Shown here piece after piece: positions 12,793 to 50,453 of a DNA stretch of 64,000 bases. A model generated the notes under the pieces. That model saw only the letters and a list, made by a program, of their open reading frames with translations. It searched no databases and was not told the DNA's origin. Positions within the stretch are counted from its first letter, which is position 1. The number at the start of each line of letters is the position of its first letter. Both the position numbers and the translations under genes were made by a program. The stretch covers positions 34,075,501 through 34,139,500 of the forward strand of contig CP142455.1 of the NCBI GenBank assembly GCA_038049695.1, given 5' to 3'. This DNA comes from Cinnamomum chago (Eukaryota > Streptophyta > Magnoliopsida > Laurales > Lauraceae).

Positions 12793-12797
12793 ATTAT

Positions 12798-14541: not shown

Positions 14542-14546
14542 ATTAT

Positions 14547-16214: not shown

Positions 16215-16225
16215 AAAACTTTATC

Positions 16226-22797: not shown

Positions 22798-23299
22798 GAA
22801 TAGGTTATTCAATGTCTATCACATACACAATGTCTATCACATACACAAGATAAGATATCAATTGGAGATGTAACAAATGGAAGGTTATACCAAATGAAAC
22901 CAATGGAATATGACAACATGATAAATAGCAAGGATGTGACAAACACAAAATTCCATCAAGCAACATAAATGGATATTCATCACTTTTAAAGATATGACTA
23001 TTGAGCATAGTGATGAACAAGAGAAATTGCAATGCAAAAAGATATGACTTGGCAAAGCATGCAATTTTCAAAGTGTCAAAATCATATGAATTCAACATCT
23101 AAGATATCCATCAAACATATAGAACTACGAGGAATGGATTTCAAAGAGTTTCATATGATTAAGATCACTACTTATGAAGTTGAAACATGTATAAGGATGA
23201 CACCAAGAGAATCTACATGAATCAACATCATAACCATCCAAAAAGAAAAGACTAGAAGGCAAAGAGGATGGATTTTAGTTCTAGTATGGTTTCTACAAA
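22798..23299. other. A-rich sequence, possible far side of the copia-type element split by CACTA-2
   Basis: Begins with an 18-bp tandem duplication (AATGTCTATCACATACAC, about 22811-22846). Composition and short phrases resemble 50.46-51.2 kb, the sequence on the other side of CACTA-2. If CACTA-2 is removed, with one AAA, the two join. This is inference from composition only. Confidence 0.3.
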
Positions 23300-24530
23300 C
23301 ACTACAACAAAATACAGTTTTACCAACGCAGTCACCGCATCTGGAAAAATCAAAATTGCGTCGGGACAGGCTTTACCGACGTAGTACAATGCGTCAACAC
23401 CACATCGGCAACCTAATGCCAAGAAAACCATTCCCGACGTAATAATGTTTAGCGTCGGCTAAAAAGGGCCATTCGCCGACGCAATGGTGCGTCGTCCCAA
23501 ACGTCGGCAATTCCAACAGCGTCGGCAAAAAAATGAACTTAGTGGTCAACCTCACTTCACTGCCAACGCATGACAACGTCGGTTATACATTTGTCGACGC
23601 TAATACTAACGTCGGAATACATATTTGACGACGCATACACAACGCAGGTAATACATATCCCGACGTGTCGAAGCGTCGGGAAATGTCTTCAACGACGCAT
23701 GAGAATTACTTTTAGCGACGCAAAGAATGCGTCGGGAAATAGATTTACCTAACTGCCGACGCATAACAACGTCGGTTATACATTTGCCGATGCTAATACT
23801 AGCGTCGGGATACATATTTGAGGACGCATACAGAACGCCGGTAATACATATCCCGACGTGTTGAAGCATTGGGAAATGTCTACAACGATGCAGGAAAATT
23901 AGTTTTAGAGACGCAGACAGTGCGTCGGGAAATAGATGTACCTAATTACCGACGCATAATAACATCGGTTATACATTTGCCGACGCACATACTTGCGTCG
24001 GAATACATATTTGACGACGCATACACAACGCCGGTAATACATATTCCGACATCTTGAAGCATCGGGAAATGTCTTCAGCGATGCAGGAAAATTATTTTTA
24101 GAGACGCAGAGGGTGCGTCGGCAAAATAGATGTACCTAATTGCCGACGCATAATAACATTGGTTATACATTTGCCAACGCACATATTAGCGTCGGAATAC
24201 ATATGTGACGACGCATACACAATGCCGGTAATACATATCCCGACGTATTGAAGCATCGGGTTATGTCTTTAACGATGCAGGAAAATTACTTTTGGCGACG
24301 CAGAGAGTGCGTTGAGAAATAGATTTACGTCATTGTCGACGCATAATAACGTCGATTATACATTTGCCAACACACATACTAGCGTCGAAATACATATTTG
24401 ACGATGCACGCATACCGCTGGTTATACATATTCCGACGTATTGACGCGTCAAGAAATGTCTCTAACGAGGTCAAGAAATTTACTTTTGGTGACGCAGAGA
24501 GTGCGTTGAGAAATAGCTTTTCTTATCAAT
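23300..24530. repeat. CACTA-2 left end: TIR plus ~193-bp subterminal tandem repeats
   Basis: After the terminal CACTACAACAAA comes an array whose landmark CATTTGNCNACNC-type string recurs at 23588, 23781, 23974, 24168 and 24361, a period of 193-194 bases. Every unit holds several short motifs CGACGCA and GCGTCGG in both orientations. Such motifs are the usual binding targets of TNPA-type proteins. Units decay away from the end. No coding potential. Confidence 0.9.
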
Positions 24531-24885
24531 TAAGAAATAATTGAAAAAATTAGGAAAAATTCCTATACAATATTTTCCTGTTCAAATCTACATTTTTAAC
24601 ATTGCACAAGCATAAGCATTAATAAACAATAAATAATCCCACATTCATCATGTAACAATAAAAAAATAATGTGTCATCAATAAACTAAAACCAATCATAA
24701 AACTTGTCCATGCCACATAAAATGTAATATCCCACATCAAAAAAAGTCAAATATCTCAATAAAGTAAATCTCAACTAAAATCTAATCATCAAATATCCAA
24801 AGCACGCCATGAAATACGGCCAGTAAGGAGGAAAATGAACTTGTTAGAGGGATGACCCATGTCAATTCATAAAACCATCAAATCC

Positions 24886-27800
24886 TTATCTTTCGGAGGA
24901 GCCTGAACCATCCATACCGACTCGGGAAAGCAACAACTTAATCTGACTCTGCATGTGAACCTGCACAGCTGCCTGATCTTGCATTTGCTTCTGCGAGTCC
25001 TCATACTGTCGCCGCAACTCTTCTCTCAAATCTTCTTGTGCTTTCAACGAATCAGCTAGTTGCTGCCGTAGGGTGCTTATCTCAGAAGACATCAAGATAC
25101 CAGTAGAAGATGATGATGGGCCCCTAGAGCGGTACCCTTGCCTCCTTGCGACCCTCTTCCCTAACAGATTCTCGATCACCTGTTGCTCAGCCACTGGAGA
25201 GTTAATTTCAGGCTGCAACAATGCCTCTTCCATTCTTCGCTGCATTATCGAAGCATTCAAATATGTCATGTAATTAATATATGTTAGGCAATTGAAATAA
25301 ACGGGGATCTACAATACTAGCAAAGAGTGCCCCGTGCAACTTGGTGGTCTTCGTCATATTAAGCTTAAAATCATAAGGACTACCCATAAACACTACTATA
25401 TGGCCCATAAGCTTTAAGTATTGAATGAAAATTGACTTAAAAGGAGAGGTCAAATTGAATTTCTCAATAGTCAAAATCAAATTGGAATCAATCACTCACT
25501 TCACTTCATATATAATAATTGTAGTTCTTGCCTTGCCACGAACAATATGAGTAAAGAGAAGTTGCTAAATGGTAATGCAATATGGGATGAGCTATTGCGT
25601 GGCTATTAAATTGTAACATTGCATCACAACATGTTTAACTAGTGATAGGCTTAAAATGACCTTAAGCATAGGTTGTAAACTCCTATTCTCATGTACTATA
25701 TAATACAAACAAATATTCTCATGTCAATGAAACAACTCACATGTGTCTCCTCAGCATGATCTGTGATCCATTTGTTCTTCTTATTGCTATAGTGTCGCTG
25801 TCGATATAAATCAGGTTGAGATGGAGGAGCCTGTTGCTCATCTGCCTGCATGATCGAGAACTGGGCTGCAAATGATCGAGATCCAGATTTATGAAGCGAC
25901 TTCATTTTGCTCCGGCTCTCTTTATTCTTCTGTGACTTGCGCTGAAAATTACAAGTAATAGATAATGAATTGAGTAAGTAAAATTTTATAATAATAGGGA
26001 TAAAAATATTTATAAATAATTATAATAATAGACATAAAAAGGGACACACACACCTAAAAGATTATTTTTATAAATAGAACATAAAAACAAAGACAAAGTG
26101 AGAAAATATCTCTTTGTAAGTTAAAAAAAATTAGAGCAGTTAGGACTTAGTATGATAATCACCAAAAGCCATGTTTAGACATTATTCCAATTTTGTTGTG
26201 CTAATTTTGATTAATTTTGATTAGAATGTTATAATGAAATTATTCTCAGATTGCAAGGGAAGTTTTGGATGCAGCAGCTCGTGTGATCAAACCTGGAGTG
26301 ACAACTGATGAAATTGATGAGGTGGTTCATGAGGCTACAATTGCTGCTGGTTAGTGTCTCCTTGATGACACTGTGTGCCTTTATGCCTTATCAAATAACA
26401 TGATTATAGATCTGTTATCTTCTTGTTGATTTTACAGAAGTTATTGACCATATGCAATTTTCAGTGCTAGATACAAGACATTAATCTCGTAAGGTGTGAA
26501 GCAACAGTTGGATTTTATTGATGTGTTTCTCGATGGATCAATAAAAAGGAATCATAAGAATTGCTCATCTTAGAGTGTTATTGAGGGTTGGATATGTTCC
26601 TTGATCCAAGTACATGCACAGTATTATCAGGCCCTTCATGTATACCTGAGATGCCATAGGTAATCCATTCCAAGCTGTTCATGTGATGGGTTGTTCCTTG
26701 GATAGGTCTGTTGAAAGAAATCTTTAGAGCAAAGACAGCACCTTCATGCGGTTGGAGGTTATGAATAAAATGCAACATATTATTATTTTGGTGTTTGAGG
26801 TTTTTTTATTTTTTTTTATTTTGGGTGGGGGTGGTGGTGGTGGTGGTGGTGGTAGTGGTGGTGGTGTGTTTGTGGGTGGGAAGGAGAGGGCAAGTTCTGG
26901 ATTGATTTGGCAGTTTCCCGTGGTTCATCAGACCCATGTTTTGGGTCACTTTAACATGGACCCAGTGTGTACAAACTAACAAACTAAGTCTCAAGGACAT
27001 TTTGTGCAACCTCAACCTTTAATATCATATAATTTGGCCTACCTTGTTTGAGATAGTTTGTGTCATTTCTTTCTCAAAAACTCACATCTGTTTCTAAGTT
27101 CTTTATGCCCCTGAAGTTTTTCAGGAAGAATCAGCTTCATGTTATGAGGTATCATATTTTCTAAAATAAAAGGAAAAAAAATAAAGCAAAATAGTGTGCA
27201 ATAGTAGAAAGAGAATCAATCCGCTGTAAATGTTGAAGGATGTCTTATATTCCAAGTGTGATAATAATAACAACATTCTTACACCTAGCATGGCAGATAA
27301 TTGATAACCAGTTTTTACTAGAGAGCTATAATTTTCATCTATGAAAACCAATCTTCCCTAGAGAAAAAGTAGAATCGAAACCTAAGGATGTGTACTCTCC
27401 AGACCTTTTTCTACATTTATTATGCCAGTCGAACTCAATAATGTGGAACAGCAGGGACTCGAGTGATATATCAAAACATTAAAGTGACTAGAGTGATATA
27501 ACTCAGCAATGTGGAACAACAGGGTCATTTCAGCTAGGAAAATCATAAATATACAATTCTCAGCCAGAGAAATTGAATATGAACAAAAAAAATAGAAAAA
27601 AGAGAACCCTTTTCTTTTTTCAAAGACTGCTATCACTAACAATCTCGCAATCCTTTCTTAAAAAAGAAAATTTTACATGAAAAATGAACCATCCACTGTG
27701 GGCCCCCACAATGTCTAACAGTTTGGATCATGAAAGGCCACACTTGCCCAACTTGAGAATTCCAGCAAACCATGTGTCTATCTATACAAGCTGAGCAGTA

Positions 27801-30100
27801 ACAGCACCACAGTTTTAAAAAATTGAACAGTTTCCTTACTGTTTAAAAAATTGTTTTATCTAGTGCCCCTCTCTCTCTCTCTCCATCTTTTTCTATCTTT
27901 CTCTTTCTCCATAAAAGAACCTAACAACCGCTCCTTTTAACAAAGCAATAAAACATCCCAATCCACCACCCCCACATGAAAACAACAGCCATAAAACTAA
28001 TAGTAACAAAAATTGAGACATCCCATCCCATCCCATCAAACCATACTACCGACCAATATCATCAATGCCCATATTTCACATCTGCACTCTTTTGCTTTCT
28101 CAGGTCTCAAACTGGTTCATTAATGCAAGAGTCCGGTTGTGGAAACCCATGGTTGAAGAGATGTACCAACAAGAGTCAAAAGAAGAGGAGGATGGAGAAG
28201 CAGATGGCAAAAACAACCACACCCAGAGAGCACAATCACCAATGCCAGCCACTGCAATAACAGCAGGCAAAAGATCCGAAATCAATGCCCAGGATAGTGA
28301 CCCCACAGTCTCACACAAGGCAATCAATAGACTACACTACTCGGAAAACCAATCTGACTTGGGTGACAATGCCGAGATGGGTCGGATCATGGCCCACCTG
28401 GGCTCTGACCCACATGGACCCCTAGGAGACACGTGTCGGATGGATGGGGCCGTAGAGATGGGGACCACTGCAAATGGGGCACATTTAGGACCATCATGTG
28501 TCATGTTTGGATCCACTGGAGATGTGTCACTTACATTGGGGCTCAGGCATGCAGGGAACGTGCCCGAAAAGACCCAATTCTCTGTTGCAGATTTTGGAGG
28601 GTTATAGAAGAAGAAAAAAGAAAATGGAGAAAAACCAAATCTTGAAACATAACAATAAAAAATCACCCATTTTTCTATTTTCCATTCTTCTCTCTTTCTT
28701 TTTCTTCTCCTCGAGAGTTGGGAAAACACATGAATGAGAAGTGAATGGAATTTATTAAAGAGACCCGGATTGATAGATTTGGATGTGGATAAGAGGTGGG
28801 CTCAATATCAGTAGCTGAAATGATCTTAACCCTTAGCTAAAACAACAACAATATTTAAAACAACAACAATATATATTGTGACGACTAATTTAAGCCATGT
28901 ACCGAAAGCAAATCAGTTAATATAATTTAGTTACCTTCCACTCTGGTGTCTCCCACTTGTTTTCTATCAGCCAGACCCACTGGGCCGCCCTCTGCGTATC
29001 ATATGGGCACTGCTTCGGATCGTGGCCATTTTCCAATGACTTCTTATATGCTTTGTATAGCTCTGCCCTGAACTCCCTATAGATATGCATCGCTAGTTTC
29101 CCGATTGCATTTGCTATACGTGCGTCAGTCTTCCAGTCGCCAAAGTCATACTTTTGCTGTCATTTAAAACCCACAAGTGTGAAAAGTAAACAGTAAAGCC
29201 TATGAATATAGATTAGAAAGTATAATATTGTTTTATTACCGCAGCTGCAGTAAAGAATGCCTCCTTGCACCCATCATCAATTGCTCCCCATATTTCTTTG
29301 TCTAATGGTGAAAGCCTGCGAATATGACTCCCCAACTCGATTGCAAATGTAGAGGCATTTATACCTTCAAAAGCCCCCGATTGTGCACCTAGCGGAACAG
29401 AAATCCTACCGCCCAGAATCCTCATCCTCTTCTCTGACTCATGGCCCACCACCCTACCCCGTACACGCCGAGAGGATGATGCTACAACCAGTACAAAATA
29501 ATCCGAATTATTAAACATAAAAAAATGTAATCGAAACAATGAGTTTGAAAAGATAATAGGGTCAAATATTTCTTACCTACGCTGCTGTCTGTAGTAGGCT
29601 GGCTCGATACATTGCGCTGGGTGGCACCGATCTCACACCGATTGGCAATACGATCTGGGACCGATTCTTGAGTGCCTGCTGATTGGCTTTGTCGGCGTCT
29701 CCCTGGGGCCATATATGCGAACTGAATAACACAATAAGTTAGGATAACATCAAGAATTACGAAAAAAACACAATAAGTTAGTATACATGTAAGAAATAAC
29801 ACAATAAGTTAGTATACATGTAAGAATTTTGATATTAGATATAACAACCTCATCTTCTAACTCTTCTTCTTCCTCACTACTTCCGGATGGTCTATACTCC
29901 TTGTCGACGTCATCATGCTCGCCTTCAACAGAGAGTTGAAGCCGAGATGGATTTTGGATTGCTTGTACCAATTGTCGTGCGCCAATTTCACTCATTCTGG
30001 CCATGTTACTTACAATATTCTTATTTCTAGCCAACTCATAAGCATTCTTCTTTTGAGACAATGCGCCAGGAGGAACATAAGCTTTTCTTTTTTTCGGCAT
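24886..30100 (-). CDS. TNPA-like (Ptta/En/Spm) accessory protein of CACTA-2, multi-exon
   Basis: The start [20 protein letters not shown] is at 30100; that exon ends in an acidic run ([12 protein letters not shown]) near 29.85 kb. Further exons: [20 protein letters not shown] near 29.72 kb; [20 protein letters not shown] near 29.48 kb; [20 protein letters not shown] near 29.16-28.94 kb; [20 protein letters not shown] from 25942; and a last exon ending at 24886 with a coiled coil ([20 protein letters not shown]). The intron from 28934 to 25943 (GT...AG on the minus strand) is 3 kb long and contains host exons in the opposite orientation. The protein should bind the subterminal repeats. I see no stop or frame change in these exons, so it may still code. 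Confidence 0.7.
26250..26349 (+). pseudogene. Methionine aminopeptidase 1 (MAP1-type) single exon
   Basis: Between TTCTCAG and a GTTAGT donor the exon reads [20 protein letters not shown] then [13 protein letters not shown], a near-canonical segment of plant cytosolic methionine aminopeptidase type 1, just upstream of the metal-binding part of the pita-bread fold. The enzyme removes initiator Met from nascent proteins. Only this exon is present; no metal ligands are encoded. It sits antisense inside the long intron of the TNPA-like gene, so it is captured cargo of CACTA-2. Confidence 0.85.
26823..26880. repeat. (GGT)n microsatellite
   Basis: A run of GGT/GGG units. Gly-rich or Thr-rich open frames over it are artefacts. 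Confidence 0.9.
28104..28607 (+). pseudogene. BEL1-like homeodomain protein, last exon
   Basis: After TTTCTCAG the exon opens with [20 protein letters not shown], the recognition helix of a TALE-class homeodomain. It runs 167 codons to a TAG at 28605-28607 and includes [12 protein letters not shown]..., the C-terminal VSLTLGL (ZIBEL) motif of BEL1-like transcription factors such as the SAWTOOTH group, ending [12 protein letters not shown]1-like proteins pair with KNOX factors to shape meristems and leaves. The POX/BELL domain and most of the homeodomain are missing. The frame is open, so the copy is young. It lies in the same intron as the aminopeptidase exon and on the same strand. Confidence 0.9.
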
Positions 30101-30275
30101 TTTTTGGACCGCTATTATAAAAAATGACAAAGGGATCATAAATATATAAAAGGATCAAACATATATATAAAAATTTAATAAAAAGTCACAATATAGGCAA
30201 ACAAATGAAAATAAAATTAACAATTCCATTGCATGTAATCCTTGTCCACACACATGAAGAAATGAAATTTACATA

Positions 30276-33200
30276 TCATAATTCCATATCAGAATCAATA
30301 TCAGGGTCGGACTGGTCAGTTTCCTCTTCATTTATGTACTCTGCCAATGTTTCATCCTCGTCACCACCATCGCCAGCAATTGGCTCATCGCCATCTGCCG
30401 CAGGTTCATTATCCTCAATGATGATATCTGGTTCAATGTCATCCCTAGTGTAACAAAAGGAAAAATCCTCGGCAACAGATACTGAGACAATTTCAATGGC
30501 TTCTTCCTGTTGGTATGGCTCGTTTGTCACATTTTCCTCGTTTTCCTCATCTCGCTCTTGCACATCCCAAATGCCCCGATGCTTGGCCCGTTCCATGACT
30601 TTCCAATTTCGGCCTAATTTGGTGTCATTGACATAGAACACTTGATTTACCTGATTTGGCAAGACAAAGGGATCCTCCTCATACCACCGATCCCTAACGT
30701 AAATGCTTGTGACATGTGCCTCGATATTTATTTTAGATTTATGACCTGTATTATACCATTCACATTTGAACAAAACAACTTCAGAACCATTGATGTATGA
30801 CAATCCAAAAATGTTGGTCAAGTAACCGAAAAAGTCAATGTTTTCCTCATTGTGGTCTCCCTCGACGACCACCCCGCTATTTTGGCTCTTGTGACGGTTG
30901 TCGCGGTCTATGGTGACAAACCGGATACCATTAACCATACAACCCGAGTATTGATGCACCAGACAACTAGGACCATTTGCCAATGCCCACAATGCATATG
31001 TTGCTTCTGAAGACCCTTGAGACCTAAGTTGGTTTATCTGCATTAGTTTCATAGAATTAGTTCAAATTGGATTTCCATGTTTTGAGTTGAAAACATTTAT
31101 TATGCATCTGTTATACGTACATGACCTCTGAACCATCCAGAAAACTCTTCCCGTTGTAAATTGGTGATGTTGCGTCCACCGCGCTCATTCACTTGCCTCT
31201 TGTGCTCCCTACTCAGGGTATTAGTGACACATAATCAGTGTGACACATAGGAATATCAGAAAGTTTACATGTAATGCATACAATTAGTTAAACTAAACCA
31301 CTTACTCTAGATAAGGTATGACATCAGGAGTGTTATACAACACAAACCAATGGGCCATGTTGCGTTCCCTATCGGACACATTAGGAGCCCTCTTGATAGG
31401 TGAAAAGGGCCAGACGCGTTGGGTGAAGACACCCAACTCTAGGCCTTGTTCGCCCCCATCATCATTTCGTTCTTCAGGAACTTCTCCCTTTAGGTACATC
31501 TTCATAAAATTAACACTCTCTTTGGCAATATATGCCTCGGCGATCGAACCTTCTGGCCGAGCTCGATTGGTAACGTAGCCCTTCAGTGTTACCAAAAACC
31601 TTCAAACACATACATCAATATCAAGATGAAAATTTTTAAAGAGTAGTAAACACAATCACCTCTCGATACTAATCAACAATTTAAAGAATGACAAAGGGAA
31701 TCACCTCTCGATTGGATACATCCATCGATATTGCACCGGTCCAGCGAGCATAGCCTCACGAGATAAATGAACTGCCAAATGGACCATCACATCAAAAAAA
31801 TGCCGGTGGAAAAATCCTTTCCAACTTACACAGTATGAGGACTATCTTATTTTCCAATTCTTCCACATGTATACATTTCAAAGTCTTTGAGCAAATGTCC
31901 TCTGTGAGAACCCGACCCCTAATCTTGTGGATTAGTGTTGTTTTATTTGTGGATTAGTTTCTTTTACTGGGATTAGTATTTGTTGGGTTGAGTTTGTGAG
32001 CTAGAATGATTTTTCTTCTAGTTTTGGGCTTTTGAGTGCTTTGGTAGCTTGTGGGGCCCTTTGGGGGTTCCCTTTTCGGCTTTGCATTTACTTGTGAGAT
32101 TTTCCCGATTTGTTTCGTATTGGGTTTTTGGCCCGTTGCATTCATCTTGAGGAATCCTACAACTTTCATGTTGATCCCGTATCCATTTGAGAGCCCGAAA
32201 CCCGATTTCTTGGCCTTGAGGGCAAAACAGTCATTGCACACCAAATCTGTACCCAAAACTTGATATTCCCGAAACCCACGAAACATATACTTTTTGGAAA
32301 CTAGATATTTCGACGATCATTTCTTCCTTCTTCGTCGAATCCATCCGAGGTCCTGAATTAGATGATTTCAGCCAAACTAGTCCCTTAAGTTGTGGGACCC
32401 AACCTCCTTTGTTAACATAAGAGAACCCACCCCCTTCATTGCATCCCATTCTCCATTTTTCCAGCACAGCCAGCTGAACCTAGGGTTTTCCCTTGTGTTT
32501 CTCTTCTTCTTGCTTGCTTCTTCATCTCCAAGCCACACCAATCTTGCACCAAACTCGAAATGGAGATCATCAATCTCTTCCTCTCCTTGCAAGCTTCATC
32601 TTGATACCATTTTTGGAGAAATCCATCAACATTGAGATCTTCTTGGAGCTAGTTCTCTTCATTTGGAAGTCATCCAAGTAAGTGATTCTTTCCATCTTCT
32701 AGATTTGTAGTCTTCTAGCCTTAGAGAAGCTCCACCTTTATAATTGAAAGGTTTCCTTGTCATTTCATTGTTTAACCCATTTTAGGGTTTGTTTTGGGGG
32801 TTTTTGTAGAGATTGTGGATCTTGAGCTTGAGAGGTGATTAGGAGCTTGATTTGCTAGATTGGAACCCAAGGCAAGTGGATGAATGGATGGTTTTAATGT
32901 TATCAAAGTTTTATGAGAAAACCCTAAGTTTATTTCTTGTTCTTGATCATTGGATACATGTTTGCACATATGCTCCTTGTCACATATATATGGATTTCGA
33001 AATTTGCATATCAATGGTTGTTTCTATCTTGTTAATCTCTTGGAGACGTATGCATTTCATTTGGTCAAGTTTGCTCATATGGTTTTATAAGGAATAGGAT
33101 TGGTTTGGCTATTCATGGTTATGTTTATGAGTTACATTGATTTGAAATTGATACTCATTTATAGAGTTTTGCTAAAACATCTTTGGTTATGGAAATGTGA

Positions 33201-39950: not shown

Positions 39951-40345
39951 TGGTCAAAATCCAATCCAACCCAATAATTGAAAACAGTAGACGATGAGAA
40001 GAAAAACCGACCTGAAGCAAAAGAATAAACGAGCAAGAAACGCCTCTGAAAACGCAGAAAAGGCGACCCCAGATCGAAGAGTCAATTGGACTTTCCAGAG
40101 GTGTTTGTGAAGTAGGGAAGAAGGATAATGGAAGAGATACAACAACAGAAGAGGAAGATGAAGGAGAAGGAACTAGGTTCCCACACCTGGGTCTCGATCA
40201 CCACACCCATTACAGAGAAAAATGGATGGAGAGATCAAAATACAAAACCCTAGAAAAAGAAGAGATCCAGATGAGAATCGATGGGAAAGATGTTTGGGAG
40301 TTGAATCCGATATGCATGAAGGCCCATTTTCCTTCTTCTATTTAC
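39950..40345 (-). promoter_or_regulatory. Possible 5' leader/first exon of the transposase transcript
   Basis: Read on the minus strand, the segment has the look of a plant 5' leader: CT-rich with CTAGGGTTTTGT, CTTCCATTATCC and TTCTTCCCTACTTC, ending GCTTCAG followed by GTCGGTTTTTC, a plausible donor. It lies 2 kb upstream of the transposase start codon on the same strand. No clear TATA box was identified. It may be captured from a host promoter. Confidence 0.3.
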
Positions 40346-40750
40346 CAATACAATAACAACACAAAGAAATCAACTAGAGGGTTGCTAGGCGGGAGGGTTG
40401 CCTGCTGGCAGAGGTGGGCGGGTGGATGCAGGGGCGGTGGGAGAATAGGGAGGACTGGACAGCATAAAGAGAGATGGAAAGGGAGAGATCATACCTTTGC
40501 TTGCTGTACTTGCAAGAAGAAGATGATTCCGAAGAAAGGTTTGCCTTTCTTTTGCTGCAGTTACAGACAACCGGGTTCACTTTGCTGCAGTTGCAAGAAG
40601 AAGACGATGGAGAAAGAGGAGTTCTCTTGCTGCAGTTGCAAGAAGAAGCCGAGTCCGAAGGACGATTTGGCTTGCAGGAATTGCGAGAAGGAGAAACGAG
40701 AAGAAGAAATTCTGACGGGTTTAGAAACAGGGTATAGGGGTTTGGCGTGA
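40226..40750 (+). CDS. Hypothetical Cys/Lys-rich repeat ORF (doubtful)
   Basis: A 174-codon open frame whose second half is built on repeats of a TTGCTGCAGTTGCAAGAAGA-type unit (about 40.50, 40.55, 40.58, 40.63 and 40.67 kb), giving CCTCKKK, CCSYRQ, CCSCKKK, CCSCKKK and CRNCEKE. I recognise no family. It runs antisense to the putative leader of the transposase, so it may be a chance frame through a minisatellite. Confidence 0.25.
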   Translation: MERSKYKTLEKEEIQMRIDGKDVWELNPICMKAHFPSSIYQYNNNTKKSTRGLLGGRVACWQRWAGGCRGGGRIGRTGQHKERWKGRDHTFACCTCKKKMIPKKGLPFFCCSYRQPGSLCCSCKKKTMEKEEFSCCSCKKKPSPKDDLACRNCEKEKREEEILTGLETGYRGLA

Positions 40751-41164
40751 GTCTTTTATAATGCTGGAAGTTTTAGCGGGAGATCTAATGGCCCATCAAA
40801 AATTAGGTTTAGTTCACCCAATAAAATACTACCCGCTAAAAATATATCTTTAGCCTCAAAAGCATAGGCCGGCACAAAAAAGTTAGACACTATAAACTAA
40901 AATTTTTTAATTTCCACCAAAATCTCATTTTGAGATTATCTTATTGTACGATTGAACAAAAAAAAAAGTTAATAAAACAACAGTTTTTTAGCCATGGTTT
41001 TCTGTTTGGTCAATCTTACAGTGGTTCCAACTCAATTCTAACAAAAAATTGGGATACCCATAATTAAATGTATATGAACTTTTTGAACGACTCTGATTAT
41101 CCATATATGGGTACGAGTGAGACCCATTCAAAAAAGTTCCCACCATACTCCGCTAAAATCTTAA

Positions 41165-41668
41165 GGGCACGTTTGTGTACATGTAATTTTCGTGGAAATT
41201 GGAAATTGCCACATCAGCAAAATCCATGGGTTTCAAATTTTTTAGAAAAGTTTTTCCGCGGAAGTCAAAATTTTATGTTTGGTGCAAAAAGATTTTCCTT
41301 GATGAATTAGTACTAATGTTGTTTGGTGCAACTATGGATTTCTTTAGTGAAAACCATTTTTTTGTGAAAACTATTGGGTGGGTAGGTTGGTATGTGTGTG
41401 GGGTGGGTGGGGTTGGGAGGGGAAGAGGAAGAAAGAGGGTGGTTGGGTGGAGTGAGGGTGAGAGAGAGGAAATTGGGGGGTCGGTTTTTCGTGGAAATGG
41501 ACTTGCCATACTCCCCCATAGGAAGTCTATTTCCATGGTTAGGAAGGAAAAAGCTGACGTGGCGAAAAAGCATTTCTGCAGAAAACTGCCGCACAAAACA
41601 CATGAAAAAGAAGTTTTCCGCAGAAAACTACAACCTTTTCCGCGGAAATGGGCTACACAAACATGCCC
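41165..41668. mobile_element. Tourist-like (PIF/Harbinger) MITE, 504 bp
   Basis: The ends GGGCACGTTTGTGTA and TACACAAACATGCCC are inverted repeats flanked by TAA on both sides (41162-41164 and 41669-41671), the 3-bp target of PIF/Harbinger elements. TTCCGCGGAA motifs occur near each end. Several open frames across it are artefacts. Confidence 0.75.
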
Positions 41669-43690
41669 TAAGAGTTCACTCAATCAAACCCTAATTTTCA
41701 TAATCTAATTTATTAAACTAATAACTTTATTATCATTGTTCCTAACTTTTACAACATCTCTCAAATCACTAACAACTACTTCATACAATCACTAAAAACC
41801 ATAATAACAAGCATAAATATATATATCCTTGCCTTATTTGAAGCTTGGTCTTTGTTTAGCTTAGCTTAAGAATGGAATTCCTCCACTTGAACCTTAATTT
41901 CCAAGAAAACTCTAAGGAAATGATGTAGCAAAGGAAGAAGATGGCTTCCTCTTCACTTGTTTTACCTCAATTCACACTTGATGACCAGAAGAATGGAAGA
42001 AAGAAGAGAAACGGATGGAGAAAGGGGTTGCCTAGGGTTTGAATGAAATGGATGAACTCAAATGAGTTCATCTTATCATATATAAGGGTTGAATTTTACA
42101 TTTAAGTCCACTACTCTTTCTGAATTCCAATTTAAGTCAAATGACGTTCCATTTGATCCGTTTCTCGTCGTACAACTTCGAGTTCAGCATGAAAGTTATC
42201 GTACTCGTCGAGATACGCATGTTGGTATCAAGAGTTTTCGTATTCGACAAAATACGTATAGATTCGTATTTCCGAAAAAGTCCTTGGTTTGGCTTGTTTG
42301 AAGTTCATTTCCATTCAATTCATTTCTTAATCTTATTTACTATTTCATTAAGCCTAAGTTCCTCATGTTTAGGCTAATTTCAATTTCATTTAGTCATTAG
42401 TTCAATTAAACAGGCTTAATTAGCCTTAATCTCAATTAATTAGAGTTAATCGTGATTAACTCGGGACGGAGCCTAACATCTTCACGAGTTGTTTTCGTAA
42501 TTAATTTGTCTTGTCTATTGTTAATATTGATTTGGATTTTGGTTGGGTCAGCAATGGCATCTGTATAGTGTATATTATAAAATACATCAATTGTTCATGT
42601 TCAATTGAAAACTAATTATGTGTGCATATCGGCATAATTTTATCAGTCTTTTAAGGTAGTCATTATTTCCCTCCCTCTCCCCCTCTCTCTATTTCTCTCT
42701 CTCTTTACCGATTTATATTTGTTTATACTTACAGAATTTTTTTTTTCCATTCTCTTGCTCTATCTGCCTGTGTCCCTGTTAAGCATGACTCTGTTATACT
42801 GAAAAGAACTTGTCCATATACTGTCTTGGCTGGAACCCCATAGCACATTGGTTACCTTATTCTCATGGTAGCAGATATGTAGCCCTGCAATTCAAAGTCC
42901 AAAATAGTTGTTAATGACACCCACAAAATCTGGATAGTCCTGGCCCTGCTAGAAGAAAACATGTGAATCTCATTGAGAGAGAGAGAGAGAGAGTGTGTGT
43001 GTCTGGCCTGCTAGAAGAAAACATGTGAATCTCATTGAGAGAGAGGGAGGGAGAAACTTACTTGGTTGGATTTTCAAAGCTGCATAAGATTAAAGCAATG
43101 GAACATGTGAACCAACTTAATTGTGTGGCCCATCTCATGTCAATCAATGGGGTATGCAGAGATTGGAAGATATCATTCAAATTTCAAACTAGGATGGATC
43201 CATATGGGTATGATCTGAACACCTTAACATTTGAAAGTTTAACCCAGCCAATCGGGTTACCCCATTAGGTCATGGGATCGAGATTTGGCATCGGCAATGT
43301 GGTGACAAAAATAAAAAATCATGAATGGCGTGCATCCACATAGGTCCCACAAGGGGCTGAGATTTTTTCCTCATAGGAAACGTGAGGGGTGTTTCTTGGA
43401 TGAAAATTGCCAAATATATACATATGTATATTGTAAGTATATGCTATAAGATATATGAGCTTGAGTTGAGATTTAGCTTATTATGCCATGTCATGCAGAG
43501 CATCTCTAAGCTTGGCTTGATTTCTAATAAAGAATGAGCACTTGAGCTTGGTTAAGTCTATCGGCTCACCTAGGCTGGATTAGTGTTCAACCAAAGCTCA
43601 ATCTCAGCTTGTTTACATCCTTGCCTGCATTTCTACTTTGCACTTGTACTTCTCCCATGTTTAACAATGATTTTAATTTTATTTTATGAT
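41669..43690. other. No gene seen; LTR-like and simple-repeat sequence
   Basis: The part at 42.06-42.48 kb (CGTTTCTCGTCGTACAACTT, repeated TTAATT/AATTAG blocks) resembles LTR debris but lacks ends. Short (GA)n and (GT)n runs lie at 42.98-43.00 kb, and the segment around GGCCTGCTAGAAGAAAACATGTGAATC is duplicated in tandem (about 42.94-43.04 kb). Confidence 0.4.
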
Positions 43691-43709
43691 TCGAGAATAT
43701 GCATGATAG

Positions 43710-43925
43710 GAGGCAAAAAGTAGCAACAGTATTACTCAAAGCCTGTGATCTACTCTCTCTTCACTGGGGTTTTGACTACCTCGCACTACGGGCTTATGAA
43801 GATGATTCGGCTGCACGCAAATTGTATTTAGCGGCAGGCAACAAAGTTGTCTCATGGGATCCCAATTGGATGACTACTTGGATAGGAAGAAAGAGACGTG
43901 TTCTAATGATCAAACAGTCTAGCCT
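43710..43925 (+). pseudogene. GCN5-related N-acetyltransferase (GNAT) exon fragment
   Basis: After an AG at 43709 the exon reads RRQKVATVLLKACDLLSLHW, then GFDYLALRAYEDDSAARKLY and LAAGNKVVSWDPNWMTTWIG with RKRRVLMIKQ. This is the acetyl-CoA-binding and C-terminal part of a plastid-type plant GNAT; the (Q/R)xxGxA-type loop is RRQKVA. The N-terminal half is missing. The sequence stays open well past the usual end. It is part of the host cargo of CACTA-2 and lies on the plus strand like the other pieces. Confidence 0.8.
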
Positions 43926-44649
43926 CAGTGAGTTGTATTTCCACCTGCGGAGTTTTTGCATTCTTCCTTACCACAAAATTTTCATGCCAAACTATTTCAT
44001 TGGTAGAAAGTTAAGAAAAATTAGTTCCAAAGTTTCATTTACTGTCCAAAATTCTGTTCATGGGAATCCTCCATTTGGCAAGAAATGTTGTTAATGATAA
44101 CTCAAGGAAAAGAAGTGAAGAACCCTGTTGGTTTTCCCTTCGTCTAATTTCATTTTCTCGATTTATGTTTGTGCATTTGCAAGTTCATTTGCTAGACCTT
44201 AGAGCCGGTTGAAGGTCATAATAAAGAGTAAGAGTTGGATAAAGCATATGGAGAAGCATCACATGAAGGAAACCAAAATAACCAGAACATAAGGAGCAAA
44301 ATTAGAAGAAGCAAACTTGGGGCACATGACATTTTAATTGACAAGATAATGGTTACTTGTTAGCCTAACACAAACAATAAATTATTGATTGCTTACAGAT
44401 TGAAAGTAAATATAAGAAGTGCTGAATGCAACAAAAGTAAGCATAGAACTCTCCTTGAAATTGTAAAACTTATGTAGAGAACAGATCAATAGTCCCTGTT
44501 TTTGTTGCTGGCCTGAACCTATATTTTAAAATAGAAAATGAAAGATAAAGCAGTTCGAGGATAGGACTTAATTCTCCTTGACAATTGTTTGACTTGTGTT
44601 TGGATCCATGTGGTATACATGGTACCATGTGAAAGCAAATTGGCACTAA

Positions 44650-44680
44650 GGGCATGTTTGTGTAACCAGAAAATGGACTT
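44650..44680 (+). mobile_element. Half of a Tourist-like MITE
   Basis: TAAGGGCATGTTTGTGTAAC at 44648-44667 repeats the terminal sequence of the 41.2-kb MITE, including TAA, but no matching second end was found nearby. Confidence 0.35.
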
Positions 44681-44767
44681 TCCCTCTGTTTTGTGAAGAT
44701 TAAATCTGCAGAAAACGAAAATCCAACAAGTCATTTTTCTACTCAAATGGCACTAGGAAGCCCACGT

Positions 44768-44769
<2 letters not shown>

Positions 44770-44806
<37 letters not shown>
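44770..44806. repeat. (CT)n microsatellite
   Basis: About 18 uninterrupted CT units. The surrounding 44.1-45.5 kb shows no gene. Confidence 0.95.
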
Positions 44807-44808
<2 letters not shown>

Positions 44809-45489
44809 TTCAACAGCACAAGGTACTTTCTCTACCACTTCATGCTTCTAAAACATCTCTAAGAAAGTTTAGGACAGTTGCACTTGAATGAATTTACTCA
44901 GTGACAGGAGTCCATACTTCAATGGGGACTCATAAATTGAGAAATATTTATTGAGTTCTGAGTTTTCTAATGATAGTTCTTTCTTCCATTCTCTATATTA
45001 CCCTGATGAAATTACTGCATTGTTTTTTTTTTTTTTTTAAATCAAAACTTATGGATTCACTAACCATTCAAAAAACAAATTATGAATCCTTTTACTTGTG
45101 ATTTTCTTGAAGATCCCATTAGCTCTTCTTTTTCTTTTTCTTTTTTAATATCAGTGAAGTACTCACATGCCAAAACACAAGATCAACAAAAATAAAAGGT
45201 CGATATAGTATTATAACATATGCACAGAACTAAAATTACATAATGTGATCAACTAAAGGAATTTCCCCATCAGTCCCTTGCTCAGACATTTTGCTAGCCA
45301 ACCTCTCTACATGCTTAAACAGCACTTGAAAGGAAGAAGACAAAGTTTTGATTTTGAGAAGGAAAAGAAAAAAGTAAATGGAGCTTCCATGGCCTGCAAC
45401 AGAAAAAATCCAAGAAACAACATTAGAAAAACCTCTCTCCACTTCAATGAAATGAAGAAGAAAACAAACAAAGAGCTTATAAAATGGCC

Positions 45490-45612
45490 ATCATCTTTGT
45501 CTTATAGACTCTCATCATCATCGTCGTCACCTTGTCCAAACTATGTTGGGGTCGGCTACATGAATTCTACTTCTCCATCTGGATCTACCCTAACCCAAAT
45601 CCTCAAATAAGT
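45490..45612 (+). mobile_element. SINE-like fragment
   Basis: CATCATCATCGTCGTCACCT followed by CCAAACTATGTTGGGGTCGG and CTACATGAATTC matches a widely distributed plant SINE body as I remember it. The promoter A and B boxes were not identified, so it is probably partial. Confidence 0.5.
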
Positions 45613-46229
45613 TAGGAAGATTATATACATGCATCATTCCGGGGTTATTTGAGGCAGGGTTATTGAGCAGAGGTGCTGACGATGCATCAGTGTATCTGCT
45701 CTTTGGTAGTATTAGAAAAAGGGATGCACATGCATAACCCCCTTTTTATAACCGAAGCATCCAACACAAGCACTAAGTAAAAGTAACCAACTGAGAATAT
45801 AGGTGTTGTTTCATCAAACATGCCCAGTTCTACTATAACAACCAGTAAAAAGGATGTGTCAATAACTTTAACAAATTTGTTTCCCAATAGTATAAGAATA
45901 TTAGATAGAGCCACTCTTTTTTCTTTTCCCGCTTGCTTGGTGTAGCGACCAAGTGGGACTACTTAAACCTACCCGCCCAAGGATTGATCCCAGAGCAGTA
46001 TGGTGAGAGAGGAAGTCCTGTCCACATAGACATCCTATATTCTTGGGTCAGTAGTGGATATTGATTATTCACAAGAGATGCAATTTGAGCTTTTTCTGAT
46101 TATTCTTCGCTTTTTGCATAGTTCATCTTCGTGGATTCACGCTCTGGATTTGCATTAAAATAAATTAAATGTGTTTCTCCTTTATGCAGATAATAAACCA
46201 TATAAATGTATGATTTCTTGTGGTGCAGG

Positions 46230-46335
46230 GGATTGGTGTTAGAACACCCCAGGTGCCAAAATGGAAACAGATACTAGTAAGATTGAAGGCTCGTGTCTCC
46301 AAAAAGCTTATTATAGCCACCGGAACTCCGAGCAG
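46230..46335 (+). pseudogene. Unrecognised exon-like piece
   Basis: Following TTGTGGTGCAG the sequence reads GIGVRTPQVPKWKQILVRLK then ARVSKKLIIATGTP without stops. It looks like real conserved coding sequence but I do not know the family. No donor is obvious. It is probably another piece of host cargo in CACTA-2. Confidence 0.35.
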
Positions 46336-46507
46336 CTTTTTTATGCTATGCTCCATTCTTTTCAATCATCTGTAGTCTTTTAATGCAAATACTATGCTGG
46401 TGAAATTACTGGATCCTCACTATTTTTTTTGGGTAGAATGCCTTAACTTCTCAAACATGTCATAGCATAAATTGTAAGATCAAGACTACTCTTCTCTTTC
46501 TTAAGGT

Positions 46508-47240
46508 TTTTTTTTTTGCTAATTGGTAAATTTGTATTGAAAAGAGAGAAGAAGGCCAAAGCCCCAAAGGGAAGGAGAAGAAAGAATACAGCCAAAGTAA
46601 GCAAGCTAAACAAAAGGCCACCTCTTAAATAGGAGGGGCAAAAAACCAGCTGGATCCAAAAGAGGAAGACGAGAACAGGATAATTCAAAACTGCTGAAAC
46701 TTGATGCTGCAGAATGGAGACAGCTCCCAAGGAAGACTTGCGAAGAAACATTGCACAAAACTGGCAGCAACAAATGGCATTCTTTCCTCAGCACTCTGAG
46801 GACGGAGAGGCGTCGCTGCACAACAAAACTCCACTAGAACACTACCTCAGCTCAGCACTGAACAAGCTAAACAGCCAAGAGAGCCAAGCAAGCCATCACC
46901 CAAGGAGAAGAATGCAAGGCTGACATGGAGGAAGAGGGCTAGCTTCTCCTGGCTTGAAGAGAGAAAGGCCCCACAGGGCACAATTTAGAAACAGGGGACA
47001 CACCTAGCAGCTTATCCAGACCAGCAAGAAAGCAGGGCATAACTAGAACTCTGAGAGGAAAGCTGAGCTCCAAAACAGACTCCAAACTCACCAAGGAAGC
47101 AGCCAATATACTCCACTAGGCGTGCCTCACTACCCTGCACCACTGCATCCAGCACTTAACTGAGACTGAAGCTCACGCAAGCTGGCTCTTGCCAAGGGTC
47201 TAGGTGGCGCTGATAGTTCTAAAGGTTGGTGATAGACCGA
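46508..47240 (-). mobile_element. 5'-truncated LINE 3' end
   Basis: On the minus strand the sequence ends CTTTTCAATACAAATTTACC followed by AATTAGC and a poly(A) run, the typical 3' terminus of plant L1-type LINEs. The upstream part is GC-richer 3'-UTR-like sequence with no RT or RNase H motif recognised. The 5' limit is uncertain. Confidence 0.55.
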
Positions 47241-47399
47241 CATACTTAAAAAAAAACAGAGAGAGAAATGTTATATGACTCATTATCAGGTATTATTATC
47301 ATTTTTAAAATTGTCATAACATCAAGCATAAACTTTCAAAGATTGTATATGTAAACGACCTATATAATATATATCTCGAGTCTCGACAAAGATAATGAG

Positions 47400-47600
47400 A
47401 TAGAGCTACTTGTCAATGCTGTAAATAGATTTTAAGAATTTGTCATTGAACACCTTGAATGAGATTGAACCTTGATATCTTTTCTCTTCCAATGCATCAG
47501 AATATGCTTGTATAATGATGGCGTCTTTATGTACATGATTTTTATCATCATATGTCACAAGCAGAAAGATACAGCTTGTAGTTCCATCAACCAATGTGGG
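47400..47600 (-). pseudogene. Unrecognised exon-like piece
   Basis: The minus strand reads VDGTTSCIFLLVTYDDKNHV then HKDAIIIQAYSDALEEKRYQ and GSISFKVFNDKFLKSIYSID. It has a balanced composition and no low complexity, so it may be a relic exon; family unknown. Confidence 0.3.
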
Positions 47601-48847
47601 TATTATGAGGGGGAATGACTAAGATTTTTCTTTTTGTTAATATGTATGTTATCAATTGCATTGCCTGCTGATTTGCTTGTTCATGCTCATGGTCATGGTC
47701 TGTTCAATGCAGATTACTTCAGTTTTAAGAACCTTGATTCCCCATCACATTTAAACAATTCTTAGTGTACTCGATGAGTATTTGCTCTGTTTCCCCATTA
47801 AGAATTTGAATTTGCATAAATTCTTTTGTCACTGACTATAACTAGCTCTTTTTATAGGATGTGGACGTGCCTTCTTTTTAGGATCTTCAAGAGATGTAAC
47901 ATTCCCATGGTGGAAATGGGGACGGTACTGCCTCATTTCTCTCCCTAGAATATCTTCTAGCCAACACTTCTTCACCTGCAGGAGTCCTACACAAGGGCGG
48001 TGTGTGATTTTCAACCCCACCATCCAAACACAAGGAGCAACCTTGAACTAAAGGCAGAGACCAAAAATCCCATGCTGTGTGGGACTCCTGGGAATTTGCT
48101 GAAGGGTGTGGTTTTGGATGTACCCCAGTCCCCAAATCACAAGTGGCACAGATCTACAGATCTATTGGGCGTTGCATTTGTGGATTGGACCGTGGACTCC
48201 AAACCAACAAATGGGGTCACTGGCTTCAATTGTCCTCAACCCGCTCGCAATCACTACAGCTCAATACCCTCTCCAACTCATTGCCTACTCTCTCAGACAA
48301 GTTATGGGAGTGGAATCCCATCCCAGAATCCAGCAGAGAGTAGTTACAAATAATCAGTGAACTGCACATGTATACCGAAATGTGTCATTTGCTTACTACA
48401 ACTTCCTTCTTCATTTCTGTAAATTCAGAGGCAAAACTTGATGTTGGTAAAAAGATGATGTTAAATAAATTTCTTCTCCAATGAGTACTATCATCCATCC
48501 CTTCTCAACCTTAACTGAAGTGGGGTACCAAGCTATTCTTCTATTTTTCTTTTTCCATTGTGTCATTTGTATTGTTGGATAATGGTAACAACAATAATTC
48601 TATGATTGCCATATTTGCTGAACAAAGAATTACCTTGATCTCTGAAAATGGGTTGGGACTCAGGCATTGTTCATATGAAAATGCACAGTGGGACTCATTT
48701 ATATATTCAACTGAACTAATTTTTACAGCCTTTGCAGATTGCAACTTCCTTGGAAGTTAAGGGAGCAAACCATTCCAACCTTTGTTTCTAGTCTTCTTCT
48801 CTACACACACACACACACACATATATATATATTGCATCCATTATTCA

Positions 48848-48878
<31 letters not shown>

Positions 48879-48880
48879 TA
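47601..48880. other. No certain gene; overlapping open frames at 47.85-48.36 kb
   Basis: The block at 47.85-48.36 kb is GC-richer than its surroundings and open in more than one plus frame (for example VLDVPQSPNHKWHRSTDLLG), but no frame gives a protein I recognise. Short (CA)n and (GT)n runs lie at 48.80-48.88 kb, just before the SMG7-like piece. Confidence 0.35.
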
Positions 48881-48881
48881 G

Positions 48882-49788
48882 ATGGCTTCAAATGCGAGAA
48901 TGGCAGCCAAGGCAAAGGTTCCTTCAGATCCTAACGCATGGATTCAAATACGAGAAAATTATGAAGCCATAATACTCGAGGACCATGAATTTTCTGAATC
49001 ACATGAAATAGAGTATTCTTTGTGGCAGTTGCACTATAGACGAATAAAAGAGTTCAGAGCACACATCAATTCTGCTTTGGCATCTCTGGGATCAATCGCA
49101 TCTAAAGGAGGGAAAGGTGTGGTTCGACCTGATCGAATAAAAAAGATACGCTCTGTTTTCAAAGGCTTCCTTTCAGAAGCAACTGGATTTTATCATGACC
49201 TGATTTTGAAAATATGGGCTGCCACTTGGATATTTTTCTGAGGGTTCAGAGAATCAAATTATTCTGTCTAAAGATGTGAAGAAATCTGCTGAGATGACGA
49301 AAGGCTTGGTATCTTGTCATCGTTGTCTAATATACTTGGGTGATCTTGCTCGTTACAAAGGTCTATATGGTGAGGGGGACTATTCTACTTGTGATTATGC
49401 TGCTGCATCGAGTTACTACATACAGGCAGCTTCTCTTTGGCCATCAAATGGGGATCCTCATCATCAGGTATCTCCCTCTTTCTCTCTCTACATGCACATG
49501 TCTATCCATATATACTACTTTGTCTGTCTCTCTCAAGCGTCATTGATCACCTTCTTTTTGTCCTAGCACTCGCATTTTGGCTTAGCATCATTTCCTGTTT
49601 GAACCATGAATCTGCCAATTTTTTTTTTACTTATTTTGAGCATGGATAAGTTGTGCCTTCCATAGCTTGCGATATTGGCATCCTACTCAGGAGATGAGCT
49701 GGTCACAGTTTACCGTTACTTTCAGAGTTTGGCAGTGGATAGTCCTTTCTCTACAGCAAGAGACAACTTGATTATTGCATTTGAGAAG
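48882..49788 (+). pseudogene. SMG7-like (EST1/SMG7 family) 5' gene fragment
   Basis: Starts MASNARMAAKAKVPSDPNAW at an ATG after a (GT)n run and continues IEYSLWQLHYRRIKEFRAHI, then VRPDRIKKIRSVFKGFLSEA and TGFYHDLILKI. A deletion near 49.21 kb shifts the frame to YGLPLGYFSEGSENQIILSK, then RCLIYLGDLARYKGLYGEGD and AASSYYIQAASLWPSNGDPH, with a GT donor after HHQ at about 49.47 kb. A second exon from 49671 reads LAILASYSGDELVTVYRYFQ and SPFSTARDNLIIAFEK before GTATTT. This is the 14-3-3-like/TPR N-terminal region of SMG7-type proteins, which bind phosphorylated UPF1 in nonsense-mediated decay. The rest of the gene is absent. It abuts the right subterminal repeats of CACTA-2. Confidence 0.85.
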
Positions 49789-49849
49789 GTATTTCTTCAT
49801 CTCTTTTTTAATTGCATTGTGAGGTTGGAAATGCCAAGGTGGTCTTACT

Positions 49850-50453
49850 TGTGTTGGTAAAAGTAACAATCCTATGTGACTTTTGCCAACGCAATCCAAA
49901 TATGCATCGGAAATAAGACTTTTGCCAATGCCAATTTTCACTGCGTCGGCAAATAGTGTCGGGAAAGTTTTTCCACAACTTTTGCCAACGCAGTCTTACT
50001 TGAGTCGGTAAAAGAAGCAATTTTCTCTGACTTTTGCCAACGCAACTTTTCACTGTGTCGGAAAATAGTGTCGGAAAAGGTAAGTTTGTCATAAATGGGG
50101 CTTTGGGGACGCAACTCATACATTGGCAATTGTATGAATAAAAACTCAAACCTTTCCCAACGCACACTTGTGCGTCGCTAATAAACAAGATAATTGCCAA
50201 CGCATTATTGCATCGCCATTAGATAAAAACGCGTTGGCAAAACTTTCCCTCTCTTTTGGTGTTTTTTGTTGTTACCGCCAATGTGGTTTCAATAGCTTTT
50301 GCCAACGCGGTCTTACTTGCGTCGGTAAAACTATCATTTCCCGACACTAATTGCCAACGCAGTCCAAATATGCGTTGGAAATAAGACTTTTGCCAACGCA
50401 AATTTTCCCTGCATCGGCAAATAGTGTCGGGAAATGTGCAATTTGTTGTAGTG
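49850..50453. repeat. CACTA-2 right end: subterminal repeats plus TIR
   Basis: Repeats of TTTTGCCAACGCA, TGCGTCGGNAAA and AATAGTGTCGGGAAA in both orientations run up to the terminus TTTGTTGTAGTG, which ends at 50453 and is followed by AAA. The same short motifs occur in the left end, but the 193-bp tandem period does not, so the two ends are built differently. Confidence 0.9.

Follow-up and report, generated by a model that had tools for sequence, protein, structure and literature searches.

The window, by which we mean the whole 64,000-nucleotide stretch of DNA analysed, contains one CACTA (En/Spm) element of 27,154 bp at 23300-50453. An earlier reading made without database searches (the sequence-only reading) had assigned it exact borders with 12-bp inverted ends and an AAA duplication, and direct reading agrees: the terminal inverted repeats CACTACAACAAA (23300-23311, plus strand) and TTTGTTGTAGTG (50442-50453, minus strand) are flanked by the target-site duplication AAA at 23297-23299 and 50454-50456. 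Repeat comparison and site counts delimit a left subterminal repeat region (23300-24520), with a unit of ~193 bp, and a right one (49838-50441); 25 of the 30 GCGTCG/CGACGC sites in the whole window fall in 23300-24520. The element has features of the CACTA superfamily, namely inverted repeats starting with CACTA and subterminal repeats at both ends. The left-end 12-mer is exact in 27 of 30 five-prime loci examined (the window's own counted), and matching 3-bp duplications (AAA, ACT and TCT) were seen in all three copies examined with both ends.

Related copies bear on whether these two ends belong together. A 22.2-kb sister copy at C3:44372110-44394302 carries the same two ends, is 98.4-98.8% identical to the window element over 23300-29422, 30237-31902 and 36005-50454, and departs from an end-to-end match by only two indels. 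It is flanked by its own ACT duplication, unlike the AAA of the window. A 23.1-kb copy on C8 likewise has the same two ends and its own matching 3-bp duplication. Flank comparison also identified, outside the window element at 51462-52453, a relative of the C3 sister's empty site. This relative is 93% and 85% identical to the two flanks of the C3 element, has a single ACT (51959-51961) where ACT is doubled around the C3 element, and is without everything between the two ends. The C3 sister, with the same ends, a duplication of its own and an uninterrupted relative of its site nearby in the window, shows that the two ends are those of a single element.

Pfam searches place the 5′ part of TNP2 (Transpos_assoc and Transposase_21, the latter with E 1.5e-98) at 36010-38046 and its 3′ part (DUF4216 and DUF4218) at 30279-31601, both on the minus strand. 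Comparison with the C3 sister shows a 4,102-bp insertion with TG...CA ends at 31903-36004, flanked by the 5-bp duplication TCCTC (31898-31902 and 36005-36009), which we read as a later solo LTR interrupting TNP2. Hence 4.1 kb of the element's 27 kb is later LTR insertion, and because the LTR cut its TNP2, the window copy is no longer self-sufficient. An open frame with a coiled-coil-like end at 24889-25308 (minus strand) could be the final exon of a TNPA-like gene, and open frames at 28917-30154 (minus strand) may be TNPA-like or 3′ transposase exons; positions 29423-30236 are missing from the C3 sister. Neither candidate gave a Pfam match above cut-off, nor did ten further open frames. The sequence-only reading had described a near-complete element keeping its TNP2 and TNPA genes. 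One CACTA element with both ends and a TNP2 gene is indeed present, but the 4,102-bp insertion breaks TNP2, and TNPA was not confirmed.

Captured exons of host genes lie on the opposite strand. A methionine aminopeptidase 1 (MetAP1) exon was located at 26244-26351 (plus strand) by protein search (E 2e-13) and source comparison, within a shared block at ~25727-27238. A whole-protein query found its source on C6, with ten matches in exon order over C6:5751245-5763379; the captured exon matches C6:5755131-5755250, and all 36 of 36 residues are identical. A PF00557 profile search listed no match close to C6:5.755 Mb; the shortness of the exons is the presumed reason. The SMG7-like (EST1) piece at 48896-49837 (plus strand) comprises three exons and their introns, as judged from Pfam (EST1 and EST1_DNA_bind), splice sites and comparison with a source at C4:17227303-17228264 (96% identity), which adjoins a 646-aa open frame carrying the following exon. 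Its frame is broken, with 11 bp missing in four of four class A copies shown and 4 extra bases in five of five class C copies shown. Within classes, the SMG7 cargo diverges by 0.5-0.9%, which points to recent multiplication.

A longer segment, 43248-46493 (plus strand), is also found at C8:9531763-9534901 with 95-97% identity, and on this match is captured DNA whatever its gene name. It holds an exon (43717-43923) presumed, as to both name and strand, to encode a GNAT-like acetyltransferase. That label was not confirmed: the exon matched no Pfam family at E up to 1 or up to 10, its sole match in a PDB sequence search (E 1.4) was to an unrelated protein, its single-sequence structure model was poor (pLDDT 52), and among the matches listed in a genome-wide PF00583 search none lay near the C8 source locus. 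Rightward, the copy comparison shows that class A copies contain the stretch 46508-47201; in class B copies 46507 runs directly into 47202, at a junction sharing the 4 bases AGGT. The adjoining segment (47202-~48895) is of mixed origin, with parts dispersed elsewhere in the genome. Two exon-like pieces left unnamed in the sequence-only reading are thus also captured or dispersed DNA, the one at 46.23 kb belonging to the segment that also occurs at C8:9.53 Mb and the one at 47.4 kb to the mixed segment.

The remaining captured piece, at ~28104-28607 (plus strand), represents the final exon of a BEL1-like homeodomain gene and was recognised by Pfam Homeobox_KN (E 1.8e-5) and a splice site. Its frame in the window is open to its stop. 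No close source was found in this assembly, the best match outside the family being 63% identical (52 of 52 candidates scored). Against this nearest relative, Ks is 0.75 and Ka/Ks 0.40, and the frame is kept despite a 10-codon length difference; the Ka/Ks value is probably a legacy of the period when the piece belonged to a gene. Because of these three values, the donor looks absent from this assembly. We see an even chance that the donor gene is no longer in this plant, being either a lost old duplicate or another species' gene that the element brought in through hybridisation or horizontal transfer. Of 21 full-length copies, 11 keep the frame open and 10 have in-frame stops; window and C3 copies differ by 0 synonymous and 3 nonsynonymous changes, too few to decide.

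The claims of the sequence-only reading about the cargo therefore fared unevenly. Its MetAP1, BEL1-like and SMG7-like exons stand, and the view that fragments of several unrelated host genes lie in one CACTA element is supported by source loci lying apart on other chromosomes, C6 (MetAP1), C4 (SMG7) and C8 (the 43.2-46.5 kb segment). The search for parent genes that it proposed succeeded for these three and failed for BEL1. Of the four pieces said to run antisense to the transposase genes, the MetAP1, BEL1 and SMG7 exons do so with respect to TNP2, and the GNAT-like exon is presumed to.

We also found other copies with the same cargo, as it had suggested looking for. Among the matches listed, two or more of the four pieces occur together in at least 30 proximity clusters (the window and locus L049 included) and all four in at least 14, clusters being defined by proximity (<32 kb between neighbours) and not by reading each element. 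The grouping took 40 of 186 five-prime-end rows (the others were further pieces of places already represented, or were outside the listing), 43 of 80 SMG7-search rows (short terminal-repeat matches left out), 28 of 48 BEL1 rows (further pieces and non-family matches left out), 33 of 71 rows for the 43.2-46.5 kb segment, and all 25 MetAP1 rows. Both ends, paired by proximity, occur without listed cargo at C7:19834538-19854659 and C1:61983637-61996978. Of the 40 five-prime ends listed, 34 are more than 32 kb from any listed cargo or three-prime end, and most cargo places have no five-prime end among the matches listed. Cargo is rearranged in subclasses of the family; in some copies it has been exchanged, an S-receptor kinase ectodomain replacing the DNA left of 48786.

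Two loci carry the SMG7 block in a different context. At L048 (C11:10.893 Mb) the sequence runs unbroken through 48896, with more SMG7 exons beyond 49837 (EST1_DNA_bind, 2e-18), followed by other exon-like DNA, which may represent retinoblastoma-related exons and for which there was no Pfam match. We rejected L048 as the SMG7 parent, since the SMG7 exons there give way to other DNA. L049 (C9:26.41 Mb) carries 43803-46507, 47202-49837 and then ~30 bases in common with L048; ~1.2 kb past these bases lies TTTCTTGTAGTG, an end of another type. In the SMG7 tree both loci join class A, with distances (L048/L049) of 2.2%/2.7% to class A versus 3.0%/3.3% to class B. Judged by title and abstract, the ten papers listed for CACTA together with SMG7 deal with meiosis, with polyploidy and with Brassica traits and genomes.

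We propose, with a probability of roughly 0.9, that a CACTA lineage took up host DNA stepwise and then multiplied. Capture was at the DNA level, because introns are kept. Faulty repair following excision may have brought the pieces in, or neighbouring elements may have fused and lost their inner ends; the pieces would be passengers without protein function, carried since they did not stop transposition. Counting against this explanation, the capture step itself is unseen, and simple copying of a gene that the host still has does not account for BEL1, one of the four pieces, which has no close source in this assembly. The listed ends and cargo places without their counterparts, and the unconfirmed GNAT and TNPA identities, weigh against it too. 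One caveat is that the BEL1 frame stays open in about half of the copies, which is not required of a pure passenger and counts against the passenger view.

Other explanations compete with stepwise capture. The length of the region and the nested repeats around it could suggest ends from different elements with ordinary gene-bearing DNA between them, a case that the sequence-only reading had named as fatal to its proposal; but the C3 and C8 copies keep both ends with their own duplications, and the empty site is without the interior, so we rejected a chance joining and regard this as extremely improbable. A more serious contender, though we hold it to be the minority view, is that the cargo is second-hand, brought in by a Helitron, a Pack-MULE or another CACTA family inserting in or recombining with the element. 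The longer SMG7 version and subsequent exon-like DNA of L048, the different-type end of L049 beyond the cargo and bases it shares with L048, and the mixed origin of 47202-~48895 all argue for it. However, the one end read near L049 may be an unrelated insertion, decayed family members would also explain why both loci sit nearer class A, and the MetAP1 and BEL1 pieces lie far from the SMG7 block.

Selection might instead keep the cargo, whether as a BEL1 protein or as antisense or small RNAs that would aid the element or regulate host genes. The open BEL1 frame, kept relative to its nearest relative with a Ka/Ks of 0.40, and the antisense position of the named pieces are consistent with this. 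Against it, the window and C3 copies offer too few BEL1 changes to judge, nearly half of the full-length BEL1 copies have in-frame stops, SMG7 is frameshifted, and the BEL1 Ka/Ks probably dates from its time as a gene. We therefore consider selection on the cargo very improbable.

The sequence-only reading called such an element unusual. This was overstated: multi-gene capture, capture with the transposase kept, and opposite orientation are all already described. In soybean, the CACTA element Tgm-Express1 (PMC1947982; also PMC2613891) contains five fragments of unrelated host genes, which undergo processing as exons and introns; it resembles the window element in this, but is 5.7 kb long with no transposase of its own in the description available, versus 27 kb with a broken TNP2. 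In two copies of grapevine Cactavine-5 (PMC2528002), part of a PPR gene sits downstream of the transposase frame in opposite orientation. This too is CACTA cargo antisense to a transposase, although with one fragment and two copies, as described there, versus at least four pieces and many copies here. Chenopodium Jozin-type elements (PMC8978399) combine transposase domains with host gene fragments, in the accessible text from one gene per element (Neprosin, AP2), unlike the several here. For the CACTA captures of wheat 3B, with DTC_famc5 'Vincent' (PMC4290129), 140 capture events and exon shuffling are reported, and a gene common to two CACTA families was taken as DNA exchange between families; these captures differ in involving a grass genome and other genes. 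Pack-CACTA and packFinder elements (PMC8903248) have CACTA ends and DNA from several host loci but are defined there as lacking a transposase match, whereas the window element retains a broken Transposase_21. The Ipomoea Tpn1 family (PMC5105172) is known for carrying host genic regions; as described there, these replace the interior of non-autonomous copies, with transposase genes in a few others. A source gene elsewhere, as in transduplication, was found for MetAP1, SMG7 and the 43.2-46.5 kb segment and not for BEL1.

The phenomenon is thus already known, and the odd point is the BEL1 piece without a close host relative. The family may show capture as layers: ends without listed cargo, shared cargo, exchanged cargo and longer SMG7 versions elsewhere, at a divergence of a few percent. 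Dating these layers by way of the source genes could help to tell the proposed mechanisms of capture apart. If the BEL1 donor is indeed gone, the transposon would have preserved like a fossil, or else transported, a gene that its host does not have, and the source-less piece would be a test case for transposons as keepers or carriers of genes absent from the host.

The element (window 23300–50453) begins with the 12-bp terminal inverted repeat CACTACAACAAA (23300–23311) and ends with its complement (50442–50453), and AAA flanks it on both sides, so the borders claimed in the sequence-only reading are exact as read in the sequence. We located the window at C5:34075501–34139500 and searched the genome (1.06 Gb, 14 contigs). 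At least nine places, window included, match the final 2,454 bases at full length or minus one base, with partial matches besides (40 of 715 first-look candidates scored; counts are lower bounds). The element's first 501 bases match at least 40 places, all at ≥95% identity over nearly the whole query (40 scored places among 448 candidates). A copy read whole, C3:44372110–44394302, shares both ends and aligns with window 23300–29422, 30237–31902 and 36005–50454 at 98.4–98.8%. Its 500-bp flanks match window 51462–51961 (93%) and 51959–52453 (85%), and the ACT doubled around the C3 element is single at the matching site in the window. Another copy, C8:51632823–51655934, has TCT on either side. 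These data indicate that the two ends belong to one element, which moves as a whole unit. A different 12-mer, CACTACAAGAAA, occurs 4,779 times genome-wide (two strands) versus 223 for the reversed control, indicating that another type of CACTA end is abundant.

Two indels separate the window and C3 copies. Nucleotides 29423–30236 are absent from C3, the gap lying between short matching sequences (AATCCT). The window copy carries an insertion at 31903–36004, bounded by TG...CA and flanked on either side by TCCTC; no long direct repeat was found at its two ends, and hence we read it, from sequence, as a solo LTR. Window 60790–63057 holds a relative. Minus this insertion the element measures 23,052 bp, and the C8 copy, at 23,112 bp, is of nearly equal length. 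TNP2, the transposase gene, is indeed there as proposed, but the insertion cuts it, and its reading frame is broken in C3 as well. Elsewhere in the window, inverted copies (12797–14513 and 52785–54621; pieces 74–96% complementary, related to 60138–60640) flank the element and are probably LTR-type repeats. Two long direct repeats within 8417–17554 (8417–9673 and 16297–17554, 96–98% identical) probably represent the two LTRs of a single young retrotransposon, and a perfect 62-nt inverted repeat with a 3-nt gap occupies 17648–17774.

Parents of the captured pieces had been expected in the same genome, and three were found. The MetAP1 exon (26244–26351, a protein-level match) is identical at all 36 residues to its counterpart in C6:5751245–5763379, where ten MetAP1 matches lie in exon order; another part of the protein has weaker matches (61–65%) on C5, C3 and C4. 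The SMG7 exons and introns (48896–49837) derive from C4:17227303–17228264 (96%), downstream of which an open frame of 646 aa includes the next exon; C2:11413523 holds a paralogue. Segment 43248–46493 derives from C8:9531763–9534901 (95–97%), with a partial second copy at C8:9584192–9586159. The GNAT name of its exon comes from the sequence-only reading, and no test (Pfam, PDB sequence search, genome-wide PF00583, single-sequence structure prediction) confirmed it. MetAP1, BEL1 and SMG7 stand as named; the fourth piece is captured DNA with an unconfirmed GNAT label.

The BEL1 last exon (about 28104–28607) is the one piece with no close source in the assembly among 52 of 52 scored candidates. 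The 48 matches listed include 21 full-length copies (94–100%) and 13 partial pieces at places of the element family; the nearest match outside it, C11:49307805–49308344, is 63% identical and sits in a 261-aa open frame. Against this C11 sequence, over 164 codons, Ks is 0.75 (bootstrap 0.54–1.07), Ka 0.30 and Ka/Ks 0.40 (0.25–0.62), and both frames are fully open (168 and 178 codons). Given that the other sources are only ∼3–5% distant in DNA, or identical in residues (MetAP1 exon), this divergence probably built up for the most part when the sequence still functioned as a gene, and the donor is probably absent from this assembly. It may be a lost old duplicate, fall in an assembly gap or belong to another species. 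Although 11 of the 21 full-length copies lack an in-frame stop, the window and C3 copies differ by 0 synonymous and 3 nonsynonymous changes, giving no sign of present selection.

Further copies with the same cargo, which the sequence-only reading proposed to seek, are numerous. Grouping listed places by proximity gave at least 30 clusters (window and L049, at C9:26.41 Mb, included) with two or more of MetAP1, BEL1, the 42–47 kb region and SMG7, at least 14 of them with all four (candidates scored: MetAP1 26/26, BEL1 all, 42–47 kb region 40/5,585). In many, the 42–47 kb match starts at 43857, leaving out most of the GNAT-like exon. At another two places, on C7 (20.1 kb) and C1 (13.3 kb), the two ends occur without any of the cargo listed. 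Among the matches listed, 34 of 40 five-prime ends have neither cargo nor a three-prime end inside 32 kb, and a five-prime end is lacking for most cargo clusters. These unpaired ends and clusters may reflect sampling; as they stand, they speak against a tidy family picture.

Places matching the SMG7-bearing right part fall into three main classes. Class A (window and L040–L043) is continuous over 46500–50453, class B (L044–L047) lacks 46508–47201, and class C (L050–L065) departs from the window at 48786 (48766 in L061). Left of that point L050 encodes B_lectin, S_locus_glycop and PAN_2 domains on the SMG7 strand, by its sequence an S-receptor kinase ectodomain; L051 and L053 are nearly the same there. 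SMG7 cargo differs by 0.8% (n = 5), 0.5% (n = 4) and 0.9% (n = 16) within A, B and C, and by 1.3–1.9% between classes, pointing to recent copying. In the four class A copies shown the SMG7 frame is 11 bp short, and in the five class C copies shown it carries 4 additional bases; it is therefore not a working gene.

SMG7 also occurs in other surroundings. In L048 (C11:10891805–10896662), leftward continuity with the window reaches 47361; on the right SMG7 extends further than in the window and is followed by other exon-like DNA, possibly retinoblastoma-related. A CACTA end, CACTACAACAAA, lies at L048 position 3973 (+ strand), exactly where window homology stops, and hence a further element was probably inserted there. 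L049 holds 43803–46507 and 47202–49837 plus about 30 bases shared with L048, and an end of another type lies about 1.2 kb past them. As one junction is common to several element types, these data tentatively suggest a single SMG7 capture followed by transfer between elements. In the SMG7 tree L048 and L049 both join class A, a placement that decay from the window's own family could also explain. Related SMG7 copies that share the 162-aa frame of L048 occur at C12:37.61, C1:51.40, C2:33.19 and C2:34.75 Mb; another copy, L066 (1–1500), joins an SMG7 exon to LTR-like DNA resembling window 14108–14277. Region 47202–48890 itself has a mixed origin: parts of it recur at C1, C4, C5, C6 and C10 among others.

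MetAP1, BEL1 and SMG7 all run opposite to TNP2, as had been noted, and so does the class C receptor-kinase piece; four of four on one strand (chance of all alike, 1 in 8) is weak evidence. Open frames at 24889–25308 and 28917–30154 bracket MetAP1 and BEL1; should these frames be exons of a single element gene, as they may be, both pieces would sit in its intron.

This kind of element is already known from published accounts. Soybean Tgm-Express1 carries five gene fragments (PMC1947982), Chenopodium elements combine transposase with gene fragments (PMC8978399), and grapevine Cactavine-5, like the element here, holds a captured piece antisense to its transposase (PMC2528002). On these precedents, the combination is less exceptional than the sequence-only reading held. 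Wheat 3B shows 140 capture events, with one gene common to two CACTA families (PMC4290129), and in maize, Pack-CACTA elements contain the most distinct loci (PMC8903248). Fusion of neighboring elements is a proposed capture mechanism, according to a review (PMC13317346). What is of interest to the specialist is the absent BEL1 source, together with the layered and exchanged cargo.
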